In this document: piece after piece, positions 27,369-32,051 of the stretch
Layout: the number at the start of each line of letters is the position of its first letter
How positions within the stretch are numbered: the stretch's first letter is position 1
Source: Sedimenticola thiotaurini
GTDB lineage: Bacteria; Pseudomonadota; Gammaproteobacteria; Chromatiales; Chromatiaceae
Direction: 5' to 3'
Assembly: GCA_011051715.1 (NCBI GenBank)
Contig: DRKP01000062.1
Coordinates: forward strand, 1 to 33,431
Length of the DNA: 33,431 nt
Translations under genes and position numbers: made by a program
Notes under the pieces: model-generated
Database searches by the model: none
Told to the model about the DNA's origin: nothing
What the model saw: the letters and a program-made list of their open reading frames with translations, nothing else

Positions 27369-29771
27369 ATGACCGAGATCAACCAGGACCCCACGATAGA
27401 CCTGATCACCGACCAGGTACCGGCGCGGCAGGGCGAGGTGATGCCCGGCATCCTCCATCTGCTGCCGGTCACCACCCGCCCCTTCTTCCCAGGCCAGGGT
27501 ATCCCCCTGCTGATGAACGCCGAGCACTGGACCTCCACGATGAAGGCGGCCACCGAGGCCGGCAACAGCTTCCTGGGAATCGTGCTGGCCGACGCCGAGA
27601 GCGCGGAGAAGGCGGCCCCGCCGGACTTCCGGCGCATCGGGGTCGCCTGCCGCATCCACCGCATCCAGCAGGTGGACGGCCAGCTGCACGTGCTGGTGGA
27701 GTGCATCCAGCGCATCCGTATCGAGGAGGTGCTGGAGCAGCAGGCCCCCTTCACCGGCCGGGTGAGTTATCTCAGCGAGACCGCACCGGAGGAGCAGAAG
27801 GGCGAGATCAAGGCCTACTCCATGGCGATCATCAACACCATCAAGGAGCTGCTTCCCCTCAACCCGCTGTACGGTGAGGAGCTGAAGATGTTTCTCGACC
27901 GCATGGGGCCGGACGATCCCTCCCACCTGTCCGACTTCGCCGCCAGCCTCACCACCGCCGACAAGCACCAGCTGCAGGAGATACTGGAGACGGTGGAGCT
28001 GCTGCCACGGATGGAGAAGGTGCTGGTGCTGCTCAACCGCGAGCTGGAACTGGCCCGGGCCCAGCACCGGATCCGCAAGTCGGTGGAGGAGCGCATGGAG
28101 GGACAGCAGCGCGAGTTCTTCCTGCGGGAGCAGCTGAAGGCGATTCAGAAGGAACTGGGCATCGAGAAGGACGACCGTACCGCGGAGCTGGAGAAGTTTC
28201 GCCAGCGGCTGGAACGGCTGACCCTGCCGGAGCAGGCGATGGCGCGGCTGGACGAGGAGATGGAGAAGCTGTCGGTACTGGAGCCGGGGTCACCCGAGTA
28301 CGGGGTGACCCGCAACTACATCGACTGGATCACCCTGCTGCCCTGGGGCATCCACTCCAGGGACCGGCTCGACCTGAAGGCGGCCCGCAAGGCCCTGGAC
28401 CGGGACCACTATGGTCTGGAGGACGTGAAGGAGCGGATCCTGGAGTTCCTCGGCCTGGGCATCATGAAGGGGGAGATCTCCGGCTCCATCATCCTGCTGG
28501 TGGGTCCGCCCGGGGTCGGCAAGACCTCCATCGGCCGTTCCATCGCCAACGCCCTGGACCGGCGGTTCTACCGCTTCTCGGTGGGTGGCATGCGCGACGA
28601 GGCCGAGATCAAGGGCCATCGCCGCACCTACATCGGCGCCATGCCCGGCAAGTTCATCCAGGCGATGAAGGAGGTGGAGACCCAGAACCCGGTGATCATG
28701 CTGGACGAGGTCGACAAGATCGGCAGCTCATTCCAGGGCGACCCCGCCTCGGCCCTGCTGGAGGCGCTGGATCCGGAGCAGAACAGCGAGTTCCTGGACC
28801 ACTACCTGGATCTGCGCTTCGATCTCTCCAACGTGCTGTTCGTCTGCACCGCCAACCAGCTCGACACCATCCCTCCGCCGCTGCTCGATCGCATGGAGGT
28901 GATCTCCCTGGCCGGTTACATCGCCCAGGAGAAGCAGCAGATCGCCCGCCGCTACCTGCTGCCACGGCAGCTGGAGAAGGCCGGGTTGAAGCGCGGCGAC
29001 GTCAGGATCGGCGCCCCCGTGCTGCGTGCCATCATCGAAGGGTACGCCCGGGACGCCGGAGTACGGCGGCTGGAGAAGCAGATCAGCCGCATCGTGCGCA
29101 AGGCAGTGGTGGAGATACTGGAGGGCCGTGAGAAACCGGTGGTGATCGGGAAGGAGGAGTTGCGCCACTACCTCGGTGCCCCGGTGTTCCGCGACGAGCG
29201 CAAGCTGGGTGGCCCGGGGGTGGTCACCGGCCTGGCCTGGACCGCCATGGGCGGCGCCACCCTCAGCATAGAGGCGGTGCGCACCCACGGCTTCACCCGC
29301 GGCTTCAAGCTCACCGGCCAGCTGGGGGACGTGATGAAGGAGTCGGCCGAGATCGCCTACGGCTACATCGTCAGCCACGCCGAGAAGTACGGCGCCGACC
29401 CGGCCTTCTTCGAGAGCTCGTTCATCCACCTGCACGTACCGGCCGGCGCCACGCCCAAGGACGGCCCCAGTGCCGGCATCACCATCGCCTCGGCGCTGCT
29501 GTCGCTGGCCCGCAACCAGCCGGTACGGCCCATCGCCATGACCGGGGAACTGACCCTGACCGGCCACGTCTTCCCCATCGGCGGCGTGCGCGAGAAGATG
29601 ATCGCCGCCCGCCGTGCCGGCATCCGTGAGCTGATCCTGCCGGAGGAGAACCGGGGCGAGTTCGAAGAGGTCCCGGAACACATCCGCAAGGGTTTCAGGG
29701 TCCATTTCGCCAGCACCTTCGACGATGTGGCGCCGCTGCTGTTCGGGCGCGGGCGCCGCGCAGGTCGCTGA
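27369..29771 (+). CDS. lon: ATP-dependent protease, LonA type (AsrA-like)
   Basis: Soluble AAA+ protease that degrades misfolded and regulatory proteins. The 800-aa protein has a LON N-domain (about 20-215), a coiled linker (215-300), the AAA+ module with Walker A GPPGVGKT (K385) and Walker B IMLDEVDKIG, and the protease domain with catalytic Ser701 (DGPSAG) and Lys743 (REKMIAA). The N-terminus, with ILHLLPVTTRPFFPGQGIPLL, differs from the LPLRDVVVYP-type start of classical Lon. It recalls the second LonA of Pseudomonas aeruginosa (AsrA, PA0779), so a classical lon elsewhere in the genome is likely. ATG 27369 has only a weak ribosome site. No sigma-32-type promoter was recognised. rsmA ends 66 bp upstream. 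Confidence 0.93.
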   Translation: MTEINQDPTIDLITDQVPARQGEVMPGILHLLPVTTRPFFPGQGIPLLMNAEHWTSTMKAATEAGNSFLGIVLADAESAEKAAPPDFRRIGVACRIHRIQQVDGQLHVLVECIQRIRIEEVLEQQAPFTGRVSYLSETAPEEQKGEIKAYSMAIINTIKELLPLNPLYGEELKMFLDRMGPDDPSHLSDFAASLTTADKHQLQEILETVELLPRMEKVLVLLNRELELARAQHRIRKSVEERMEGQQREFFLREQLKAIQKELGIEKDDRTAELEKFRQRLERLTLPEQAMARLDEEMEKLSVLEPGSPEYGVTRNYIDWITLLPWGIHSRDRLDLKAARKALDRDHYGLEDVKERILEFLGLGIMKGEISGSIILLVGPPGVGKTSIGRSIANALDRRFYRFSVGGMRDEAEIKGHRRTYIGAMPGKFIQAMKEVETQNPVIMLDEVDKIGSSFQGDPASALLEALDPEQNSEFLDHYLDLRFDLSNVLFVCTANQLDTIPPPLLDRMEVISLAGYIAQEKQQIARRYLLPRQLEKAGLKRGDVRIGAPVLRAIIEGYARDAGVRRLEKQISRIVRKAVVEILEGREKPVVIGKEELRHYLGAPVFRDERKLGGPGVVTGLAWTAMGGATLSIEAVRTHGFTRGFKLTGQLGDVMKESAEIAYGYIVSHAEKYGADPAFFESSFIHLHVPAGATPKDGPSAGITIASALLSLARNQPVRPIAMTGELTLTGHVFPIGGVREKMIAARRAGIRELILPEENRGEFEEVPEHIRKGFRVHFASTFDDVAPLLFGRGRRAGR

Positions 29772-29780
29772 CCTGAGTCA

Positions 29781-29805
29781 TTCGCGGCGAGGGTGCCACT
29801 CCCAC
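29781..29805 (-). repeat. REP element, left copy
   Basis: Read on the minus strand this 25-mer begins GTGGGAGTGGC and ends GCCGCGAA, the head-plus-hairpin form of gammaproteobacterial REPs (GTAGGAGCGGC...GCCGCGA type). The stem is GTGGC/GCCGC with one G-T pair. It is 10 bp after the lon stop and head-to-head with the next copy. Confidence 0.7.
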
Positions 29806-29819
29806 AGGGCACCGCACCA

Positions 29820-29844
29820 GTAGGAGCGCCGCCCCCGGCGCGAA
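29820..29844 (+). repeat. REP element, right copy
   Basis: The plus-strand 25-mer has head GTAGGAG, perfect stem GCGCCG/CGGCGC with a short C-rich loop, and tail GAA. It matches the left copy at 19 of 25 positions, and one stem pair (positions 10 and 19) is exchanged G-C for C-G, keeping the hairpin. A degenerate third copy with head GCAGGAG may lie on the minus strand at about 29871-29893. Such elements are moved by TnpA_REP (RAYT) transposases; none is in this window. Confidence 0.7.
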
Positions 29845-29942
29845 CCGGAACGGCACACCAACCGGAATCCTTTACGGCGGGGGCCTCTCCTGCCGGTCAT
29901 GTCGACGCGACGGGGGCGGCGCATCCTCGGCCTTCATCAAGT

Positions 29943-29978
29943 GCCGGAAAAACACGGAATGTCGAGGGTTTTTCCGGC
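29943..29978. repeat. 11-bp inverted repeat upstream of the globule gene
   Basis: GCCGGAAAAAC (29943-29953) is exactly repeated in inverse as GTTTTTCCGGC (29968-29978) around 14 bases. No T-run follows, so it is not a clear terminator; a regulator site or a barrier to lon read-through is possible. Its left arm overlaps AAAAACACGGAATGT (29948-29962), which recurs with one mismatch at 30134-30148 just before the globule-gene ribosome site. The remainder of 29772-30162 holds the REP pair and the promoter, and no gene. Confidence 0.6.
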
Positions 29979-30041
29979 TCCCCAATGCCCTTCACAGCCA
30001 TGGATATTGGACTATTTTTTAATCTGCGGGAAACGGAGTAC

Positions 30042-30070
30042 TTGACTTTTTAAGCAATTACTAATAGACT
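30042..30070 (+). promoter_or_regulatory. Promoter of the sulfur-globule gene
   Basis: TTGACT (30042-30047), a 17-bp spacer and TAGACT (30065-30070), with a markedly AT-rich block (30004-30023) upstream. The predicted start near 30077 leaves a leader of about 85 nt. The base composition differs sharply from the surrounding GC-rich DNA, as expected for a strong promoter. Confidence 0.65.
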
Positions 30071-30106
30071 CCAACTCAGAAAGTGTTCCAGCAGTACCCC
30101 GAGCGC

Positions 30107-30136
30107 TTTCGAATCACTCGACTGAGTAACTCGAAA
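30107..30136 (+). other. 5'-UTR hairpin of the globule-gene mRNA
   Basis: TTTCGA (30107-30112) pairs with TCGAAA (30131-30136), and inside it ACTC (30116-30119) pairs with GAGT (30124-30127) around GACT, with a 3x3 internal loop. It ends 14 bases before the AGGAG ribosome site, leaving that site free. It may stabilise the message or be a regulatory stem. Confidence 0.5.
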
Positions 30137-30162
30137 AAAACGGAATGTTCAGGAGATTACAG

Positions 30163-30519
30163 ATGAAAACGATCGTGAAAGCTGCTGCCGTTGCTGCAAT
30201 GCTCGCCGCCTCTGCGTCTGCTTCCGCATGGTGGGGTGGCCCGTGGGGTGGGTATCCCGGTTATGGTGGTTGGGGTGACGACTGGCTGGGTGACGGCTGG
30301 GGTGACATGTTCGGCGACTTCAACATGAACTTCAGCGGTGGCGGTTATGGCCGCGGCCGCGGTTACGGCTATGGCCGTGGCTATGGCTATGGTTACCCCT
30401 ACTACGGCTACGGCCCCTACTGGGGCGCCCCCTATGGCTACGCCCCGTATGCCTATCCGTATGCCGCTCCGGTTGCTCCGGTCGCCCCCCAGGCTCCGGC
30501 TGCCACCGAGTCCAAGTAA
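30163..30519 (+). CDS. Sulfur globule protein (Gly/Tyr-rich, secreted)
   Basis: A 118-aa secreted structural protein of the family that coats periplasmic sulfur globules in sulfur-oxidising bacteria such as Allochromatium (SgpA/SgpB type). It has a Sec signal peptide [22 protein letters not shown] with cleavage after ASA (residue 22). The 96-residue mature part is almost entirely G, Y, W, P and A: a WWGGPWGG start, [13 protein letters not shown], then GYG/GRG and [10 protein letters not shown] repeats ending in a Pro/Ala/Val tail. ATG 30163 is set by AGGAG (30151-30155) seven bases upstream. It is monocistronic with a strong promoter and terminator, suggesting abundant expression. A generic Gly-rich secreted protein is the alternative, but the DMFGDF and WGGPWGG text favours Sgp. 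Confidence 0.85.
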
Positions 30520-30545
30520 GATCTTCCGATCCTCACTTGCGGCAG

Positions 30546-30595
30546 GGTACCCTTGGGGTACCGGAAAATGCGGGCTTCGGCCCGCATTTTTCTTT
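30546..30595 (+). terminator. Double-hairpin terminator of the globule gene
   Basis: First hairpin: GGTACCC-TTG-GGGTACC (30546-30562), a perfect 7-bp stem. Second: AAAATGCGGGC-TTCG-GCCCGCATTTT (30565-30590), a perfect 11-bp stem with a UUCG loop, followed by TCTTTT. The second is a textbook Rho-independent terminator; the first may protect the 3' end of an abundant mRNA. Confidence 0.92.
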
Positions 30596-30772
30596 TCGGC
30601 TGGGCTGAAATCCGGCCGTGATGGTGCTGCCGCGGGTGGCTGTGAATGGTCGGGAAAACCAGGATTCAGCGATCCGCCCGCCGCTGTCTGCCGTCAGGAG
30701 CGTCCATGTACGGCCGAATGTCCCCGCTGATCGCCCGTTCTCCAACGCCATGGCCAGCCACGTGGTGCGGGA

Positions 30773-30813
30773 TTGACGGACATCAAAGCGGCGGCGTGGA
30801 CATCGGCTATGCT
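30773..30813 (+). promoter_or_regulatory. FNR/DNR-type operator and -10 of nnrS
   Basis: TTGAC-GGAC-ATCAA (30773-30786) matches the FNR/NNR/DNR consensus TTGAT-N4-ATCAA at 9 of 10 defined bases. A -10-like TATGCT lies at 30808-30813. This puts the box centre about 41 bp before the predicted start (near 30820), the class II activator position. No -35 hexamer is needed or seen. The rest of the 332-bp stretch 30520-30851 holds the globule terminator and otherwise nothing I can name. Confidence 0.7.
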
Positions 30814-30851
30814 GCCTCCCACGTCCACCTCCGCAGGCAAGCGACCGTTCC

Positions 30852-32051
30852 ATGTTGAAGATCCACTCCGAACCCCCCAAGCCGAGGCTGCAGTACCAGG
30901 GCATCCCGGTCCTGGCCCTCGGTTTCCGTCCCTTCTTCAGTCTGGCCGGGATCACCGCCGTCGTCCTGCTGCTGTTCTGGCTCGGCATCTGGAGCGGCGG
31001 CATCGCAGCCCCCGACTACTATGGCGGCATCGTCTGGCACAGCCACGAGATGCTGTTCGGATACGCCGGGGCGGTGATTGCCGGCTTCCTCCTCACCGCG
31101 GTGCGCAACTGGACCGGCGCCGAGGTACCCACCGGGCGCGCCCTCGGGCTGCTCGCCCTGCTGTGGCTGGCCGGCCGGCTGGCACCACTGTTCAGCGGCA
31201 TCCTGCCCACCAGCCTGGTCGCGGCGATCGACATTGCCTTCCTGCCGGCGGTGGCCGTGGCCCTGATCCCGCCATTGTGGCAGGGCCGGCAGAGGATCAA
31301 CCGCATCTTCGTGCCGCTGCTGTTGGCCATGGGGGTGGCCAACCTGCTGGTGCATCTGCAGCCCCTGAGCATGGCCGACCTGGCCTCCCGCGGTATCGAC
31401 ATGATGCTCTACCTGGTGCTGTTCCTGATCACCATCATCGCCGGACGGGTGGTCCCCTTCTTCACCCAGGCCGTGATCCCCGGTTACCAGGTCTCCAGCC
31501 GCCCCTGGGTCGAGGCGCTGGTCACGGTCTCCCTGGGCCTGCTGGTCCTGCTGCAGCCGTTCGGTCTGCCGGAACAGGCGACCGGCCTGGTCGCCCTGGT
31601 GGTGGCCATCGCCCAGGCCCTGCGCATCCAGCTCTGGCATGACCGGCAGGTCTGGGGGATCCCCATCCTCTGGGTGCTGTACAGCGGCTATCTGTGGCTG
31701 GTGGCCGGTTTTCTGCTGCTGGGCCTGTCCGGTTTCGGGCTGCTGCCGGCCAACCTGGCCAAGCACGCACTCACCATCGGCGCCATCGGTATCCTCACCC
31801 TGGGCATGATGGCACGCGTCGCGCTGGGCCATACCGGCCGCCCCATCGATCCGCCACGGCTGATGCTGCCGGCGTTCGTGCTGCTCAACCTGGCCGCCCT
31901 GGTGCGGGTGTTCGCACCGCTGCTGTGGCCGGGACAGTACGCCCTCTGGGTGCACCTCTCCGGCAGCCTCTGGATCCTGGTCTTCGCCCTCTTCTGCGCA
32001 CTCTATCTGCCGATGCTGTCCCGCCCCCGGATCGACGGCAAGGCGGGCTGA
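30852..32051 (+). CDS. nnrS: NnrS family membrane protein
   Basis: A 399-aa heme- and copper-containing inner-membrane protein family linked to nitric oxide defence and denitrification. About twelve membrane helices are visible. Family text includes ALGFRPFFSLAG (22-33), the histidine-rich WHSHEMLFGYAGAVIAGF (62-79), LTAVRNWTG, RVVPFFTQ and ARVALGHTGRP near the C-terminus. The N-terminal GFRPFF and HSHE motifs are the hallmark. NnrS relieves NO-derived damage to Fe-S and dinitrosyl-iron targets in Vibrio cholerae. ATG 30852 lacks a strong ribosome site. The FNR/DNR-type box upstream fits induction by low oxygen or NO. No NO reductase or nir genes are in the window. Confidence 0.94.
   Translation: MLKIHSEPPKPRLQYQGIPVLALGFRPFFSLAGITAVVLLLFWLGIWSGGIAAPDYYGGIVWHSHEMLFGYAGAVIAGFLLTAVRNWTGAEVPTGRALGLLALLWLAGRLAPLFSGILPTSLVAAIDIAFLPAVAVALIPPLWQGRQRINRIFVPLLLAMGVANLLVHLQPLSMADLASRGIDMMLYLVLFLITIIAGRVVPFFTQAVIPGYQVSSRPWVEALVTVSLGLLVLLQPFGLPEQATGLVALVVAIAQALRIQLWHDRQVWGIPILWVLYSGYLWLVAGFLLLGLSGFGLLPANLAKHALTIGAIGILTLGMMARVALGHTGRPIDPPRLMLPAFVLLNLAALVRVFAPLLWPGQYALWVHLSGSLWILVFALFCALYLPMLSRPRIDGKAG

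Follow-up and report, generated by a model that had tools for sequence, protein, structure and literature searches.

The window (the whole 33,431-nt stretch of DNA analysed here) carries a gene for a new member of an already known family of sulfur globule proteins (SGPs; Pfam PF17228), and this gene is preceded by a promoter element that is shared by SGP genes of related bacteria and contains a dyad within its spacer (Table 1). The gene call is ordinary; the family-wide promoter dyad is the new part and worth following. If it is an operator, it provides a handle on how cells match the synthesis of a coat protein to the supply of sulfur.

Table 1. Features of the SGP gene and its flanks, in positions of the window
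Feature	Positions	Strand	Basis
-35 box TTGACT	30042..30047	+	Promoter scan; dyad analysis
Dyad TAAGCAATTACTAA in promoter spacer, candidate operator	30051..30064	+	28-bp motif; 5/7 pairs complementary
-10 box TAGACT	30065..30070	+	Promoter scan and motif; aligned-promoter consensus TAT[T/A][C/A]T
Ribosome-binding site AGGAG	30151..30155	+	Read directly in sequence
Sulfur globule protein gene	30163..30519	+	ORF, 118 aa plus stop; Pfam PF17228 at aa 23-114
Signal peptide, aa 1-22, cleavage expected after A-S-A	30163..30228	+	Sequence; A20/A22 invariance
Mature low-complexity part, 96 aa	30229..30516	+	Sequence composition, 64.6% G/Y/W/P
Terminator-like hairpin, then T-rich tract	30563..30592	+	Folding: -24.1 kcal/mol, z -4.39

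The gene, its product and its neighbours

The start codon at 30163 lies seven bases downstream of an AGGAG; an alternative in-frame ATG at 30145 would extend the protein to 124 residues, and of the two it is the start at 30163 that has the AGGAG. The N-terminus possesses the features of a signal for export, namely a basic start, an Ala-rich hydrophobic core and A-S-A ahead of the first Trp, and alignment reveals that Ala20 and Ala22 are invariant in 56 of 56 SGPs, the window protein included. In the mature part, Gly makes up 28.1% of residues, Tyr 17.7%, Pro 11.5% and Trp 7.3%. Both features cited in the original prediction of a sulfur-globule protein gene, a signal peptide and a Gly/Tyr/Trp/Pro-rich mature part, are thus confirmed.

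Low-complexity sequence generally weakens claims of homology. The similarity search gave a match to PF17228 at 76.1 bits (E 4.1e-21), the curated cut-off being 26.7, and matches to this family were found in none of 14 control genomes, which indicates that the likeness exceeds mere composition. A search of NCBIfam with the window protein returned no matching model, and a PDB sequence search with the mature part no similar chain at E ≤ 0.01. It is highly improbable that the product is a Gly/Tyr-rich secreted structural protein of the surface or matrix, SGP-like in composition only and with no role in sulfur metabolism: its low complexity and the lack of an NCBIfam match would suit such a protein, but against it stand the position-specific score, the empty control genomes, the association of PF17228 with dsrA across genomes and the sox and dsr genes of the same genome (see below). 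On its sequence the product is a PF17228 sulfur globule protein, and very probably one that belongs to the envelope of sulfur globules in the periplasm, a location suggested by the signal peptide together with the family.

SgpA and SgpB of Allochromatium vinosum are Gly/Tyr-rich proteins. Like SgpA and SgpB (PMC10386293), the window protein is small, predicted to be exported and repetitive, with regular prolines, and has a closely similar copy at another locus; this likeness is one of description rather than of direct sequence comparison, and, unlike A. vinosum, the host here has no detected photosynthetic reaction centre. According to the same source, the A. vinosum SGPs form the globule envelope, mutants without SgpB and SgpC make no globules and fail to oxidize sulfide or thiosulfate, and sgpD is 28-fold up on sulfide (PMC10386293).

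The gene was also thought to be a lone transcription unit, and its surroundings agree with this. A promoter-like TTGACT-17-TAGACT at 30042-30070 is one of two such sites in 29760-30860, where shuffled sequences average 0.2; the hairpin downstream was equalled by none of 200 shuffles; and of the flanking genes the upstream one, identified by eye as Lon protease, ends at 29771, and nnrS (PF05940, 30852-32051) begins at 30852. A simple terminator scan found no sites near the gene, we guess because its stem, extended to the maximum, takes in some of the T run, and an Rfam search of 29700-30900 revealed no RNA element. A set of 74 loci (L002-L075, including two from the same genome as the window and with some places represented twice) was compared with the C-terminus of Lon and with NnrS. 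The order lon-sgp-nnrS is found again in L017, L019, L026 (the same match as L059) and L030, whereas in L037 and L063 (overlaps L069) lon lies ahead of sgp with no nnrS match within the stretch compared, and in L041, L044 and L075 nnrS lies ahead of sgp. This recurrence in relatives indicates that the window copy is not a stray and that its position is partly inherited. NnrS is linked to nitric oxide stress; in several relatives the NnrS-family gene keeps its place after lon and sgp.

Sulfur oxidation genes, paralogs and distribution

The original prediction placed sox and dsr genes elsewhere in the genome, and they are present: soxY and soxB (881 bits) are found together on contig C143, C157 encodes the FccB flavin-binding domain of flavocytochrome c sulfide dehydrogenase, and a dsr operon occupies C52. 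The host therefore possesses both periplasmic sulfur-producing and cytoplasmic sulfur-oxidizing enzymes. Two observations had been named in advance as refuting the prediction, a genome devoid of sulfur-oxidation genes and a likeness to Sgp proteins in composition alone; neither was made. On C52 the end of dsrA is followed by dsrB, dsrE, dsrF, dsrH, dsrC, dsrM, dsrK, a gene for a DsrL-like NAD(P)-binding protein and more genes to dsrP. NCBIfam cut-offs were passed by dsrB (532.7 bits), TusD/DsrE, TusC/DsrF, TusB/DsrH, the DsrC family and DsrK; the matches of DsrM (174.2 of 300 bits) and DsrP (56.9 of 350) fall below theirs, and the names DsrL, J and O rest on gene order. The dsrA gene appears as four pieces at contig ends, two with the N-terminal part (C16, C139) and two with the C-terminal part (C52, C179), and because it is cut in this way no single piece reaches the cut-off. 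The arrangement suggests two dsrA copies that broke the assembly. Several relatives possess two full copies of dsrA.

Neither SoxC nor the photosynthetic reaction centre (Photo_RC) was found in a search of the genome. Sox without SoxCD leaves sulfane sulfur for deposition, and reverse Dsr consumes that sulfur. Judged by its sequence, the gene set agrees with a sulfur oxidizer that is not phototrophic and stores sulfur in its periplasm. In ecological terms, the SGP gene allows the organism to be read with confidence as an oxidizer of sulfur that stores it in globules and in which no photosynthetic reaction centre was detected.

A second SGP operon with two more SGP genes is found on the reverse strand of contig C191 (L058, C191:7318-10680). 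The shorter product (121 aa; PF17228 at 89.4 bits) shares 104 identical aligned residues with the 118-residue window protein. The second gene, which starts at 1983 on the reverse complement of L058, specifies 317 residues with an SGP head (PF17228 at residues 23-99, 46.4 bits; DUF5320 at residues 25-121, 29.6 bits against a cut-off of 27) and a long charged tail with a near-exact repeat around DARFEQMRKQMEARRGPFGMNRPAPF. The tail looks helical from its sequence, and our guess is that such tails link the coat to something else. Thirteen of 69 distinct SGP-like proteins have at least 160 residues, and 11 of the 13, the C191 protein among them, sit behind a short SGP gene at the same locus.

Relatives are encoded at 32 loci from Sedimenticola, a symbiont of Solemya velesiana, Thiocystis, Thiolapillus and other gammaproteobacterial MAGs, and the window protein finds matches in 24 of 38 related whole genomes, its own included. 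Matches to PF17228 above the cut-off occur in 69 of the 77 genomes from the same taxonomic family and in 42 of the 274 of a class-wide sample. In the latter, dsrA (TIGR02064) exceeds its cut-off in 86 genomes, or 94 when broken copies at E ≤ 1e-30 are included. At this threshold dsrA is present in 38 of the 42 PF17228-positive genomes against 56 of the 232 others (Fisher p 2e-16, which ignores kinship); G108, with PF17228 below its cut-off, was counted as negative. The four positives lacking dsrA at this threshold are G143, G210, G261 and G298, and 56 of the 94 dsrA genomes have no PF17228, which makes the association a loose one whichever way it is read, and dsrA is no predictor of this coat family. 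Genomes with PF17228 and without convincing dsrA may use another route of sulfur oxidation or may be incomplete. Within the taxonomic family, G055 (72% complete), G065, G069 and G086 (70% complete) show this combination.

A promoter element shared by SGP genes

The upstream regions of short SGP genes contain one common motif. Seventy-five hits gave 69 distinct proteins, 56 of them under 160 residues and 54 of these with enough upstream sequence. An unsupervised search of the 54 regions (at most 200 nt) yielded a single 28-bp motif at 25.0 bits per sequence, compared with 8.5-9.1 for three letter-shuffled sets. When each site was scored with itself and near-identical sites left out, 49 of the 54 promoters reached at least 12 bits, against none of 1080 letter-shuffled regions, and 48 of these 49 sites start 85-125 nt before the start codon. 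The 54 promoters include near relatives; merging sites with at least 25 of 28 identical bases reduces the 49 to 32. The five promoters without the element are those of L032, L035, L051, L055 and L063; L035 is the SGP gene of G011, the closest relative among the matches listed (protein 85% identical to that of the window), and L063 is a lon-linked copy. In about 1.05 million positions (the loci and the window, both strands) a further 43 places reach 12 bits, many of which, by eye, are the opposite strand of known sites or missed SGP promoters. The text pattern used for SGP genes had missed some, and the promoters of L041, L044 and L075 came up as strong extra matches.

The element begins with a -35-like sequence, continues with the dyad T(A/T)A(G/T)nAwwTnCTAA (hereafter TWAGnAwwTnCTAA) and ends in TAT(T/A)(C/A)T; the dyad thus sits within the spacer, directly ahead of the -10 box, which forms the last six columns of the motif. 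Across the 32 non-redundant sites a mean of 4.5 of 7 pairs are complementary, against 2.39 ± 0.21 in shuffles, and no other even centre tested scores as high (the nearest reaches 3.31 pairs). Perfect palindromes are found in L017 (TTAGTAATTACTAA) and L019 (TTAGAATATTCTAA). Upstream of the 13 long SGP genes a 17-letter version of the element is matched at best in 9-12 letters, near the shuffled level, as expected for genes inside an operon; L012 and L064 reach 12 letters, one above their own shuffles, but at -38 and -29.

The sgp promoters of A. vinosum have already been predicted in print, and the prediction for sgpD, TTGATA-N13-TTATATACT, which ends 79 nt before the ATG (PMC10386293), fits the -35/-10 frame and the position of the element, the N13 letters lying outside this comparison; its spacing to TATACT would be 16, against 17 here. 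No report of a shared dyad of sgp promoters, or of its regulator, was found among the best-ranked matches in the open-licence literature, as far as the accessible portions of those sources extend.

A candidate operator and its possible regulon

In 15 genomes of the taxonomic family, chosen by us, a 20-bp pattern with one mismatch allowed matched 127 times and its reversal 17 times. At least 34 of the matches lie before listed SGP genes, four are the reverse of such sites and 89 are elsewhere. Since the pattern was derived from SGP promoters, its matches there are partly circular, and since the reversed control ignores real -10 boxes, ordinary promoters make up part of the excess. In the genome of the window itself this pattern gave seven matches against one reversed, whereas a loose 16-bp pattern gave 12 against 14; the latter is no enrichment, and we make no claim of a large regulon there.

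We consider it about an even call that the element is the operator of a putative regulator of globule genes. Doubtful, although still worth weighing, is the alternative that it is an ordinary sigma-70 promoter, devoid of an operator, that has been kept by the common descent of the SGP genes. Such a promoter would explain why the motif ends in a six-column -10 box, why some of the 89 sites elsewhere lie at the housekeeping-looking tgt, lepA and nuoA (named by eye), why the 16-bp pattern is not enriched and why five of the 54 SGP promoters, those of L035 and L063 among them, lack the element. It accounts poorly for the symmetry of the dyad, which is beyond chance in the non-redundant sites, for the excess of 127 matches over 17 in the 15 chosen genomes, for a site of 30.9 bits before an SgpD-like proline-repeat gene with no PF17228 match, and for the conserved CTAA ahead of the -10 box and the left half TWAG, as we know of no sigma-70 element that contains either.

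On the operator reading, one putative dimeric regulator would bind TWAGnAwwTnCTAA in sgp promoter spacers family-wide (PF17228 genes, operons with tailed SGPs and the SgpD-like gene), and perhaps before some sulfur or thiol genes (thioredoxin, molybdopterin oxidoreductase, TauE), switching with the supply of reduced sulfur; the arguments for and against such a regulon seem to us equally balanced. For the membership of the genes other than those of SGPs our expectation is lower. The sites of the sulfide-responsive repressors SqrR, BigR and YgaV likewise form a dyad; their deduced sequence is ATTC-N8-GAAT (PMC9774250) as opposed to TWAG-N6-CTAA here, and by eye neither half-site occurs at positions 30041-30071 of the window. 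YgaV binds its own promoter at the RNA polymerase recognition site (PMC9774250). The published sites of HlyU, SqrR and YgaV that were compared, taken from the accessible portions of their sources, do not fit the dyad, and for SoxR and sHdrR the literature in its accessible portions yielded no site sequence for comparison.

We envisage that the SGP would be exported by Sec, as its signal peptide implies, and that its Gly/Tyr/Trp/Pro-rich mature chain would assemble on the surface of periplasmic sulfur released by Sox (without SoxCD) and flavocytochrome c sulfide dehydrogenase. The coat would keep this sulfur reachable, to be oxidized later by the cytoplasmic reverse-Dsr pathway. The near-duplicate encoded on C191 is perhaps interchangeable with the window SGP, as are SgpA and SgpB in A. 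vinosum, and the tailed SGP may serve to anchor the coat or to extend it. The spacer dyad would be the candidate operator that ties coat synthesis to sulfur supply, and its sequence is defined well enough to be used in gel shifts and pull-downs in A. vinosum.

All but one of the 89 sites that are not near a listed SGP gene were read (the exception overlapped its neighbour), and 12 of these 88 have no ORF of 60 residues starting within 260 nt. At least four precede SGP-looking genes (L148, L167, L168 and L219). The SgpD-like gene noted above (L156, in G021) specifies a secreted PMPEF-repeat protein for which Pfam gives only a sub-threshold formin proline-region match. Its proline spacing resembles the P-X2-P-X2-P of SgpD (PMC10386293), a likeness of pattern as distinct from a test of homology; SgpD, with its proline repeats and predicted helices, is a different protein from the window SGP. 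In the genome of the window the element lies directly before a thioredoxin gene (L143, C190:5162-5181, 22.4 bits), and thioredoxin genes of relatives have sites of 15.9 bits (G082) and 11.9 bits (G020), with a weak one (4.2 bits) upstream of the same reading frame in G010. The element is also found before a molybdopterin oxidoreductase gene in G054 and its relative in G039, which we take to be SoeA-like, before TauE in G021 and before a sulfate-permease-family gene in G020; many of the genes that bear it, such as tgt, nuoA and lepA, are unrelated to sulfur. At L209 (G091, C1:1347461-1348580) an element of 20.9 bits precedes a gene whose secreted product has an OmpA domain and an SGP-like stretch rich in Gly and Asn.
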